A stretch of 54,182 nucleotides of DNA from Desulfobulbaceae bacterium (GTDB taxonomy: Bacteria; Desulfobacterota; Desulfobulbia; Desulfobulbales; Desulfobulbaceae): assembly GCA_012744275.1 (NCBI GenBank), contig JAAYIE010000006.1, positions 1 to 54,182 on the forward strand, read 5' to 3'. Shown one piece after another: positions 27,939 through 43,485 of the stretch; positions within the stretch are counted from its first letter, which is position 1; every line of letters begins with the position of its first letter. Position numbers and translations under genes: made by a program. Under the pieces are notes generated by a model, which saw only the letters and a program-made list of their open reading frames with translations, had not been told where the DNA came from and searched no databases.

Positions 27939-27953
27939 CAGTGAGGTGTGATT

Positions 27954-28760
27954 GTGAGTCGCGCACCAATTGTATCTGGCCGATTTTATCCTGCCGACCC
28001 GGCACAACTAAAAAATGAGGTGGCGCGGTACATGCAAGTGCCGGATGGGCTACCCCGCAAGCAAGCCTTGGCCGTGGTGCTGCCCCATGCAGGTTATGTC
28101 TACTCTGGAGAAACCGCAGGCGCTACCCTGGCCAGAGTAGAAGTGCCCGAGACCGTGCTCATTATGTGCCCCAATCACAGTGGCATGGGTGCCCCCTGCG
28201 CCCTCAGTCCGGATGACTGGCGTATGCCTGGGATGATTATTCCCAAAAGTAAGGGACTGGCTGCAGCGATCCTCCAGCACTCCACCTTGGCGCAGGAAGA
28301 CAGCCTTGCCCATCAGCGCGAGCACTCTTTAGAAGTACTACTGCCCTTTCTCTTTCACGCCCAACCAAACCTGCATATAGCTGCTCTTTGTCTGGGCGGC
28401 CTTTCCTTTGCCCAGTGCAGCCAACTGGCACAGGAACTGCACTTGGCCCTCCAAGCCTGCAGCCAGCCGGCATTGGTGGTTGCCTCCACCGATATGAACC
28501 ATTTTGCCTCCCGTGAGGAAGGCAGCCGCAAAGATCAACATGCCATTGACCGAGTTCTTGCCCTGGATGCACCAGGGCTGTTTGAGACGGTGCGGGTGCA
28601 ACGGATTTCCATGTGTGGCGTGCTGCCAGTCAGCGTGGCTATTTTACTTGCACTTTCCCAAGGCGCACGCAAGGCTGAACTGGTGCGCTATACCGATTCC
28701 GGTGAGGCCAGTGGCATGCTTGATCAGGTAGTAGGTTATGCTGGTTTTGTAATTTCCTGA
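27954..28760 (+). CDS. amrB: AmmeMemoRadiSam system protein B (MEMO1 family)
   Basis: The product is 268 residues of the MEMO family, a fold related to class III extradiol dioxygenases. Conserved blocks are the start IVSGRFYPADPAQL, LPHAGYVYSGETAG, LIMCPNHSGMG, HQREHSLEVLLPFL, STDMNHF and the closing YTDSGEASG. The histidines in these blocks correspond to the putative metal site. The partners of the named system, an AMMECR1 protein and an AmrS radical SAM protein, are not in the window, and function is unknown. The GTG at 27954 is preferred over the GTG at 27948 because GAGG lies at proper spacing only for the former. The candidate selenoprotein gene starts 34 bases downstream. Confidence 0.88.
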   Translation: MSRAPIVSGRFYPADPAQLKNEVARYMQVPDGLPRKQALAVVLPHAGYVYSGETAGATLARVEVPETVLIMCPNHSGMGAPCALSPDDWRMPGMIIPKSKGLAAAILQHSTLAQEDSLAHQREHSLEVLLPFLFHAQPNLHIAALCLGGLSFAQCSQLAQELHLALQACSQPALVVASTDMNHFASREEGSRKDQHAIDRVLALDAPGLFETVRVQRISMCGVLPVSVAILLALSQGARKAELVRYTDSGEASGMLDQVVGYAGFVIS

Positions 28761-28794
28761 AACACAAATAAAAAGAATCGATTGTTTTTCCGTG

Positions 28795-29046
28795 ATGATC
28801 TCCTCTTTTTTTAAAGAAAACGATCTGGTGTGCTATTGCTTCCAATTCACCCGCAAGCACATAGAACAAGACTGCGCTACTCATGGCCGTTCTTTGATTA
28901 TTGAACAGATCATCGATGCAAAGAGAGCAGGTGGCTGCGATTGCGGGCAGAACAACCCCAAAGGCCGTTGATGTCTGGCTGATGTCCATCAGGTGGTGGA
29001 CGCGGTGGCAAAAAAAGCGAGTAACCCTGTGAAAGGTTCACTCTAA
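28795..29046 (+). CDS. Candidate selenoprotein: BFD/CopZ-like [2Fe-2S] protein with in-frame UGA
   Basis: The 83-codon frame begins MISSFFKENDLVCYCFQFTR and reads on through GRSLIIEQIIDAKRAGGCDC, GQNNPKGR, UGA (28969-28971), CLADVHQVVDAVAKKA to a TAA at 29044-29046. The CxC near the start, the CxC about 33 residues later and the NPxGR-C-C ending are the pattern of BFD-like [2Fe-2S] domains such as that of Archaeoglobus CopZ, which ends NPSGRCC. The UGA falls exactly where the first of those two cysteines is expected, and family-like sequence continues after it. This strongly suggests selenocysteine at position 59. An inverted repeat CTGATG-TC-CATCAG lies 8-21 bases after the UGA, a possible SECIS hairpin. 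The ribosome binding site is weak. The alternative is a truncating nonsense mutation. Confidence 0.75.
28979..28992 (+). promoter_or_regulatory. Possible bacterial SECIS hairpin
   Basis: CTGAT and ATCAG form a 5-base stem closing a GUCC loop, beginning 8 bases after the in-frame UGA at 28969. Bacterial SECIS elements are short hairpins just downstream of the UGA with an exposed GU. The loop here is slightly closer to the UGA than usual, so the call is tentative. Confidence 0.4.
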
Positions 29047-29129
29047 AGTCTTGCTGGCCCACGCCAACTCTTCCCTTGCCTTCAGAATCGTCACCTTTTA
29101 GTTCTGTTTACCAAGCAAAACGAATCATC

Positions 29130-30047
29130 ATGCATAGTTCTCAGCTCGCTGCACTTTCTCAACTTTCCATTTGGCAGGTGTGGTGGCTGGCTATACGGCC
29201 CAAAACTCTGCCAGCCGCGCTTTCCTCGGTTATTGTTGCCTGCGGCCTGTCTTGGCACGACGGTGTCTTCCGACTTGGTCCGGCCCTGGCCGCAATGGCA
29301 GTGGCCCTTCTGCTGCAAATCGGCAGCAATCTGGCCAATGATGTTTTTGATTATGAGCGCGGGGTTGACACCGAAGAACGCAAAGGCCCAATGCGGGTCA
29401 CCCAGGCAGGTTTGCTGGCGCCTGGCCAGGTCAGGCTGGGGATGAAAATGGTTTTTTTCGTTGCGTTCATGCTGTGGCTGTATCTGGCTTGGGCCTCGAG
29501 CTGGTACATGATTTTGGTCGGGCTTTTGGCTATTCTTGCGGCCATCACCTACACGGGTGGGCCCTTTCCCTTTGGCGCCTACGGTCTGGGAGATCCCTTT
29601 GTTTTTCTCTTTTTTGGTCCGGTTGCGGTTATGGGAGCATATTTTGTTCAGGCCCTACAGGTCAGTGCCGCTGCCTGGTGGATGTCTGTGGCCATGGGGC
29701 TTATTATCACCGCAATTTTGGTGGTCAATAATCTGCGCGATATCCCAACCGATAGTGCTGCGGGCCGGAAGACCCTGGCAGTGCGTTTCGGCCCGACCTG
29801 GGCACGACGAGAATATTTCTGTTGTCTGATCATAGCCTACGCGCTGGTGCCTGCACTTATCTGGGCGGGCTTACTGCCCTTACAGGCCCTTTTGAGTTGG
29901 GGCTCATTGGTGGTGGTATGGCCAACCTGGCGCCTGGTTGAGGAACAGGAAGGTGAGGTACTCAATATCGCCTTGGCAGGTACCGGAAAGATTGCCATGA
30001 GCTACAGTCTCTTGTTTGCAGTGGGGCTAATCCTGGCCGCATTGTAA
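29130..30047 (+). CDS. menA: 1,4-dihydroxy-2-naphthoate polyprenyltransferase (UbiA family)
   Basis: This membrane enzyme attaches the polyprenyl tail to 1,4-dihydroxy-2-naphthoate, giving demethylmenaquinone. The product is 305 residues with 8-9 predicted helices. The first aspartate-rich motif is NDVFDYERGVDTEERKGPMR, the MenA form of the UbiA signature, and the second is NNLRDIPTDSAAGRKTLAVR. IRPKTLPAALSSVIVACGL at the N-terminus is also MenA-like. The ATG at 29130 gives the usual N-terminus; an in-frame TTG at 29076 would add 18 unsupported residues, and neither start has a strong ribosome binding site. Menaquinone is the expected partner of the Sdh/Frd complex encoded at 20-23.6 kb. Confidence 0.9.
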   Translation: MHSSQLAALSQLSIWQVWWLAIRPKTLPAALSSVIVACGLSWHDGVFRLGPALAAMAVALLLQIGSNLANDVFDYERGVDTEERKGPMRVTQAGLLAPGQVRLGMKMVFFVAFMLWLYLAWASSWYMILVGLLAILAAITYTGGPFPFGAYGLGDPFVFLFFGPVAVMGAYFVQALQVSAAAWWMSVAMGLIITAILVVNNLRDIPTDSAAGRKTLAVRFGPTWARREYFCCLIIAYALVPALIWAGLLPLQALLSWGSLVVVWPTWRLVEEQEGEVLNIALAGTGKIAMSYSLLFAVGLILAAL

Positions 30048-43409: not shown

Positions 43410-43485
43410 GCGGGTGTAGCTCAGCTGGCAGAGCACAAGCTTCCCAAGCTTGGGGTCGCGGGTTCGAACCCCGTTGCCCGCTCCA
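43410..43485 (+). tRNA. tRNA-Gly (anticodon CCC)
   Basis: A 76-base cloverleaf is complete with encoded CCA. The acceptor GCGGGTG pairs with TGCCCGC using two G-U pairs. The D-arm is GCTC/GAGC. The anticodon stem CAAGC/GCTTG encloses TTCCCAA with anticodon CCC. The T-arm is CGGGG-like with TTCGAAC. The discriminator base is T. It reads GGG glycine codons. Confidence 0.95.

Follow-up and report, generated by a model that had tools for sequence, protein, structure and literature searches.

A [2Fe-2S] protein gene with a predicted selenocysteine codon

The window analyzed here, the whole 54,182-nucleotide stretch of contig JAAYIE010000006.1 from a Desulfobulbaceae bacterium, was found to carry at positions 28795–29046 of the forward strand a gene for an 83-residue protein with a single BFD-like [2Fe-2S] domain, which we regard, on comparative evidence and with hardly any doubt, as a true selenoprotein gene whose in-frame UGA codon (28969–28971, forward strand) is read as selenocysteine (Sec59). 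The domain assignment was based on the translation, the homologues retrieved by protein searches, a profile match to CopZ and an AF2 model, and the reading of the UGA on the retention of TGA at one column in relatives and the occurrence of either U or C there in a sister subfamily.

As the initial annotation had claimed, translation gave an 83-codon frame in which the single TGA is codon 59 and the terminal codon is TAA, and the product displayed the motifs CYC (residues 13 and 15), CDC (48 and 50) and NPKGR-U-C (59 and 60); a GTG at 28792 on the same strand provides an alternative start of the same gene. The conventional ORF (28792–28971, 59 aa) stops at the TGA, as had been foreseen for routine annotation, and the window protein reached the cut-off of no NCBIfam model; truncation or omission by routine annotation is therefore likely for such genes. 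The earlier proposal that Sec replaces the first cysteine of the pair gained support from the conservation of the TGA, the coding constraint downstream of it, a covarying SECIS-like hairpin and a full set of Sec machinery. None of the three observations named beforehand as evidence against Sec was made: the genome has the machinery, homologues bear Cys or Sec at the column, and not all of them end at the UGA.

Conservation of the UGA and of the codons that follow it

A protein search of 95 genomes, including that of the window, returned 31 matches, and TGA was present in 28 of the 30 relatives (the two others being G002 and G005), in all 28 cases at a column identical to that of the window gene. 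Across 395 genomes, an in-frame TGA was present in 57 of the 58 top-ranking rows (window included; E no higher than 1.3e-11), the exception being G148, and among the genes from the protein searches that had a domain score of at least 40, TGA was found in 79 and Cys in two (L189 and L190).

The family was further sampled by a DNA pattern scan of named genomes, in which TGA was required and parts of codons +1, +2, +4 and +5 were fixed, and which thus says nothing about Cys forms. Full family members accounted for 77 of the 80 listed loci, the remainder being two chance matches and one locus with a broken upstream frame. The titles of the listed loci mostly named Deltaproteobacteria, Desulfobacterales, Desulfobulbaceae or their kin; Desulfovibrio sp. 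DV and Nitratidesulfovibrio liaohensis were also among them, a few titles were no more specific than Proteobacteria, Pseudomonadota or bacterium, and a Nitrospirae MAG was named once. The gene finder retained 204 loci with a TGA followed by a Cys codon, eight other loci being without this combination. Removal of copies left 142 unique genes among the matches listed, and 137 of these constituted the core set after five with scores below 40 were left out (L192–L194, which belong to the sister subfamily, L114 and L046). The presence of both TGA and Cys60 in 137 of 137 genes is by construction, because the finder kept only loci with a TGA and a Cys codon. Sec and Cys forms were counted from protein and profile searches, and the entropy and covariation analyses were run a second time with the 79 core genes from the protein searches, which avoids the bias of the pattern. 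The family with its predicted Sec is spread through the phylum of the window, and nearly always takes the Sec form in the genomes searched.

Codons +1 to +12 contained no stop of any kind in the 137 de-duplicated genes, and the earliest further TGA downstream of the Sec codon appeared at +13, in two of them. In the 79 protein-search genes, the mean entropies at codon positions 1, 2 and 3 were 0.55, 0.51 and 1.06 bits over codons +2 to +10, and approximately 1.8 to 1.9 bits at all three positions over codons +11 to +20, at the end of the domain. Since the first and second positions vary much less than the third, the codons after the UGA appear to be kept as protein. The exchange of U and C at the Sec59 column, which the initial annotation had proposed looking for among aligned homologues, was found in the sister subfamily, referred to below as subfamily B.

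A covarying SECIS-like hairpin

A small hairpin with GU in its loop had been noticed, without coordinates, just past the UGA; the hairpin that covaries is a SECIS-like one at 28984–29001 (forward strand), GUCCAU-[CAGGUG]-GUGGAC, which begins 13 and ends 30 nt downstream of the UGA. Its 6-bp stem is formed by 28984–28989 with 28996–29001, and the loop at 28990–28995 contains GGU. RNAalifold applied to the gapless 137-row alignment predicted one 5-bp hairpin, pairing codons +5/+6 with +9/+10; a sixth pair at the base was added to the counts, and this pair is the weakest, being formed in 114 of 137 genes. An overlapping hairpin picked out by eye at 28979–28992 (CUGAU-GUCC-AUCAG) was set aside, the choice of RNAalifold on the 137 genes having been 28984–29001.

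The six pairs were formed in 794 of 822 cells in the 137 genes, compared with 763.9 ± 2.3 (largest value 772) when synonymous codons were shuffled 1000 times; the corresponding figures for the 79 protein-search genes were 455 of 474 cells against 441.4 ± 1.5 (largest value 446) in 500 shuffles. Compensatory combinations were evident at individual pairs in the 137 genes: pair +5.3/+10.1 was C-G in 105, U-A in 28, U-G in three and unpaired in one; pair +6.1/+9.3 was C-G in 130, A-U in four, U-A in one and mismatched in two; and pair +6.2/+9.2 was G-U, A-U or G-C in all 137. The third positions of codons +6 and +9 were unusually fixed, which implies a constraint on the RNA, and the commonest loop, CAGGUG, occurred in 64 of the 137 genes. 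As judged by these comparisons, the predicted hairpin covaries like a bacterial SECIS. In subfamily B, folding likewise predicted a separate hairpin downstream of the UGA. In the window as a whole, the only RNA family match above the gathering score was a tRNA-Gly (CCC) at 43410–43485.

Selenocysteine machinery

The source genome (2.83 Mb in 159 contigs, the window being contig 62) was searched for the components of Sec incorporation that the initial annotation had wished to see checked, and all four were found above the family cut-offs, namely tRNA-Sec (73.2 bits), SelA (612.3 bits), SelB (363.9 bits) and SelD (361.4 bits). The selD gene (L270; contig C125, 5855–6802) has one in-frame TGA of its own, and the SelD of this genome is thus itself a selenoprotein candidate.

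Domain assignment and structural prediction

The window protein is, as far as profile and model comparisons tell, one BFD-type [2Fe-2S] domain devoid of the other parts of CopZ. Its score with the Pfam model Fer2_BFD (PF04324) was 15.8 bits, below the gathering score of 26, and the same model was matched by 48 of the 63 rows of the family alignment A2 at E ≤ 0.01. When the A2 profile was compared with solved structures, CopZ (PDB ID: 2hu9) was the only relative at E up to 0.1, with E = 1.9e-7. The best NCBIfam model was CopZ_Nterm_CC (NF047645), which gave 50.8 bits against a cut-off of 100 over model positions 84–137 of 138, and which was matched by all 63 rows of A2 (best E 5.9e-17).

The AF2 model (pLDDT 88, pTM 0.76) was compared with 11 chains, among which Bfd (4e6k) gave Z 5.9 with an rmsd of 2.4 over 53 residues and CopZ (2hu9) gave Z 3.3 with an rmsd of 2.3 over 61 residues; Z values below 8 in this comparison may mean a common arrangement only. 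Foldseek with the same model returned no match at E < 0.001, its E values being above 1.

Conserved Cys and Sec residues

Six chalcogen positions are conserved in the family: 13, 15, 48, 50, 59 (Sec) and 60, all encoded on the forward strand. The Cys13-Tyr-Cys15 stretch (28831–28839) and Cys60 (28972–28974) are invariant in the 63-row A2 alignment; Cys50 (28942–28944) was found in 137 of 137 genes; and Cys48 (28936–28938) is Cys in 136 of the 137 and in 78 of the 79 protein-search genes, the lone core-family exception (L202/L073) having Ser48 together with Sec59. Another core member, L201, which lies outside A2, has CDG in place of the CxC motif, with loss of Cys15, and GRPNGR-U-C, and may be either a genuine variant or a copy in decay.

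The relatives were grouped from 23 of 26 rows, G363, G148b and G119 being left out since they match without the NPxGR region. All 10 rows of subfamily B (L192, L193, L194, L304 and L311–L316; motif GAC/GVC...PR(G/R)R-U-C) have a Cys equivalent to Cys48 together with Sec at 59, and Cys was present at both positions in the three Cys members of B and in the two CopZ-type Cys proteins. In all seven proteins of group C (L198, L199, L200, L305, L306, L317 and L318), Cys was found at 13, 15, 50 and 60, with neither Cys48 nor any chalcogen at 59; four of the seven have a shortened loop before Cys60, and several have Cys/His-rich ends. Because group C keeps four of the six positions and loses the other two, Cys13, Cys15, Cys50 and Cys60 are probably the ligands of the [2Fe-2S] cluster, and Cys48 and Sec59 would form a separate pair. 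Group C, whose cluster is putative, may represent one origin, and the coupling of 48 and 59 has exceptions: L202/L073, with Ser48 and Sec59, and G274 and CopZ (2hu9), both of which keep the Cys-Cys pair, and hence Cys59, without Cys48. The initial annotation had suggested that Sec ligates the cluster or pairs with the neighboring Cys60; the variants point away from both, suggesting instead a Sec59 that stays outside the ligand set and pairs with Cys48.

Arsenic genes in the neighborhood of the family

Clustering was applied to the genes neighboring the 137 family members, and for ten of the resulting clusters, representatives were scanned. As identified by their representatives, these clusters comprised an ArsP_1 permease (21 loci of 137), ArsR (15), an MTH895/ArsE thioredoxin-like protein (15), TauE/SafE (12), ACR3 (10), mercuric reductase (6), ArsM (5) and an ArsG-type transporter (4); a further cluster, at 16 loci, fell to a thioredoxin-type arsenate reductase family with its representative below the NCBIfam cut-off, and the representative of the tenth had no match. 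Within 4 kb, 33 of the 137 loci had one or more of ArsP, ArsC, ArsR, ACR3 and ArsM, and 104 had none of the five; the former count is a lower bound, because many flanks do not extend to 4 kb. With a background density of 0.46 ArsP_1 matches per Mb (148 across 99 genomes), an ArsP_1-type permease would be expected near 0.5 loci, compared with the 21 of 137 observed, although the loci are not independent.

A tree of the short domain with 136 rows was poorly resolved, with nine of 133 branches starred. The ars label was nevertheless clustered on it, requiring 21 changes compared with 29.6 in shuffles, none of 500 of which was as low. At least six label changes were forced by starred branches, and the ars linkage therefore arose or was lost several times. 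Ars genes were also nearby in nine of 10 members of subfamily B and in none of 10 non-Sec relatives (zero of the three Cys members of B and zero of the seven group C proteins). The two CopZ-type Cys proteins had a MerA-like and a MerR-like neighbor with no ars match. One of them, L189 (G148:C1, minus strand), lies in an open frame of 709 codons that joins its CopZ-type N-terminal part and BFD domain to a MerA-like (mercuric-reductase-like) protein; the junction contains an RBS-like stretch and an ATG, and two overlapping products are possible.

The initial annotation had also pointed to the lack of a copper ATPase nearby and to a role that may differ from that of CopZ. None of the ten neighbor clusters with scanned representatives was a copper ATPase, and the recurrent neighbors identified were arsenic genes and not copper genes.

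At the window locus itself, the gene lies, as first described, between amrB and menA: an amrB gene for a Memo-like protein (27948–28760, forward strand; PF01875, 171 bits) ends 34 nt upstream on the same strand, and a gene for a menA-like UbiA prenyltransferase (29076–30047, forward strand, with an in-frame ATG at 29130; PF01040, 113 bits) follows downstream. The wider order is MFS, cysS (assigned by likeness to other loci) and amrB upstream, and UbiA-type menA, NUDIX and NT5C downstream. The arrangement was rejected as a conserved neighborhood, since an amrB-like ORF was detected at only one other of the 137 loci (L219) and menA at none (blastp, E 1e-5). None of ArsP, ArsC, ArsR, ACR3 and ArsM was found in the neighborhood of the window copy, and its 18-row clade on the weakly resolved tree contained one ars-linked member.

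Proposed function and alternative explanations

We propose that the UGA is decoded as Sec, that Cys13, Cys15, Cys50 and Cys60 hold the [2Fe-2S] cluster, and that Cys48 and Sec59 constitute a separate thiol-selenol pair that would bind or reduce a soft metal or metalloid; taken as a whole, this proposal seems to us somewhat better than even. The cluster would serve as a one-electron source keeping the Cys48-Sec59 pair reduced. For the pair taken by itself, the conserved residues and the neighboring genes leave a metal(loid) or redox role evenly balanced. As for its substrate, arsenic would be the first candidate in the ars-linked members, a tentative assignment drawn from gene linkage, and mercury or copper would also be possible. 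The window copy may be a genomically solitary member with this same role in redox or metalloid handling, and a shared transcript with amrB is possible.

Several other explanations bear on parts of this proposal. The UGA might be a true stop followed by a frame that is open by chance or is a decayed remnant, which would agree with the end of the conventionally annotated ORF; the protein-like constraint on codons +2 to +10 and the covariation of the hairpin in the 79 protein-search genes contradict it at the level of sequence, the complete Sec machinery also speaks against it, and we consider it exceedingly improbable. Granting Sec, the selenium could itself ligate the cluster in place of Cys60 and tune its potential, with Cys48 or Cys60 as the spare thiol. 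Six conserved chalcogens for four ligand sites make such swaps conceivable, and Cys60 is adjacent; yet Cys60 is retained without a chalcogen at 59 in seven of seven group C rows and the reverse was seen in none of the 23 rows, which renders Sec ligation rather unlikely.

A plain Bfd-like electron-transfer ferredoxin, in which Sec only raises reactivity and no metal(loid) substrate exists, would fit the best structural neighbor, the Bfd of P. aeruginosa (at a modest Z), as well as the absence of all five ars families from the surroundings of most loci, the window included. This explanation, to which we give a minor share, leaves unaccounted for the conserved extra Cys/Sec pair and the recurrence of ars genes beside members of two Sec subfamilies. 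Far less credible is a copper chaperone like that of Archaeoglobus: the N-terminal domain of CopZ is the closest solved relative and CopZ_Nterm_CC the best NCBIfam model, but that match stays below its cut-off, no copper ATPase accompanies the genes in the scanned clusters, and 83 residues are too few for the zinc part or the HMA domain of CopZ.

Returning to the Cys48-Sec59 pair beside the cluster, we offer the further, speculative suggestion that the two Sec-containing BFD-type subfamilies are overlooked parts of arsenic detoxification in anaerobes, in which the pair would capture or reduce arsenic, inorganic or organic, next to the electron-donating cluster and hand it to efflux by ArsP or ACR3. 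Sec rather than Cys would be required for this job; the non-Sec relatives examined do not stand among ars genes. The location of many relatives in arsenic-resistance operons gives a hint at the function of a family that has been listed and is functionally blank, and it opens the question of why selenium is used over sulfur beside a [2Fe-2S] cluster and whether metalloids are handled there.

Comparison with known systems

The kind of selenoprotein described here is already known, because reviews list a GxUC selenoprotein of the CopZ family. The table of a 2026 review contains '(2Fe-2S)-binding protein (copper chaperone CopZ family) form 1' (cd10141, motif GxUC, WP_245779778.1) and a form 2 with the motif CU (PMC13188914), and in the table of a 2022 review both families recur, there with no motif given (PMC9312934). 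Each review cites Zhang and Gladyshev (2008), in the main text of which the words CopZ and 2Fe-2S do not occur (PMC2398784). Neither the arsenic linkage nor the SECIS hairpin nor the 48-59 pairing was found in print among openly licensed papers; the linkage with arsenic genes is new as far as could be searched, and earlier notice of it is possible.

By its motif G57-R-U-C60 and its CopZ profile match, the window gene agrees with form 1, WP_245779778.1 being represented in this comparison by its table description. The likeness lies in the same G-R-U-C motif, the same domain superfamily by profile and the status of predicted selenoprotein; subfamily B fits the motif too, form 1 being defined here by table rows alone. 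The Csac_0668 family (NF045877), corresponding to form 2, resembles the window protein in its BFD-type domain and in having Sec within a Cys pair, and differs in that Sec is second in the pair, by the listed motif and name, and in its 161-position model, with which the window protein scored 25 bits, the cut-off being 190.

Compared with the putative iron-sulfur cluster-binding metallochaperone described by NF047645, the window protein lacks the N-terminal part of the 138-position model. Bfd, the bacterioferritin-associated ferredoxin (4e6k, 6e6r), may share a similar arrangement (Z 5.9 over 53 residues); it is a partner of bacterioferritin with the ligand pattern CxC...CxxC and is not known to have an NPxGR-UC motif. 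The N-terminal domain of Archaeoglobus fulgidus CopZ (2hu9) shows the CYC...NPSGRCC pattern and the profile match, and its structural alignment gave a Z of 3.3. In CopZ, a further N-terminal part forms a zinc domain and an HMA domain binds copper, for which the window protein is too short; within the shared domain, CopZ differs from the window protein in having Cys in place of Sec and in lacking Cys48.
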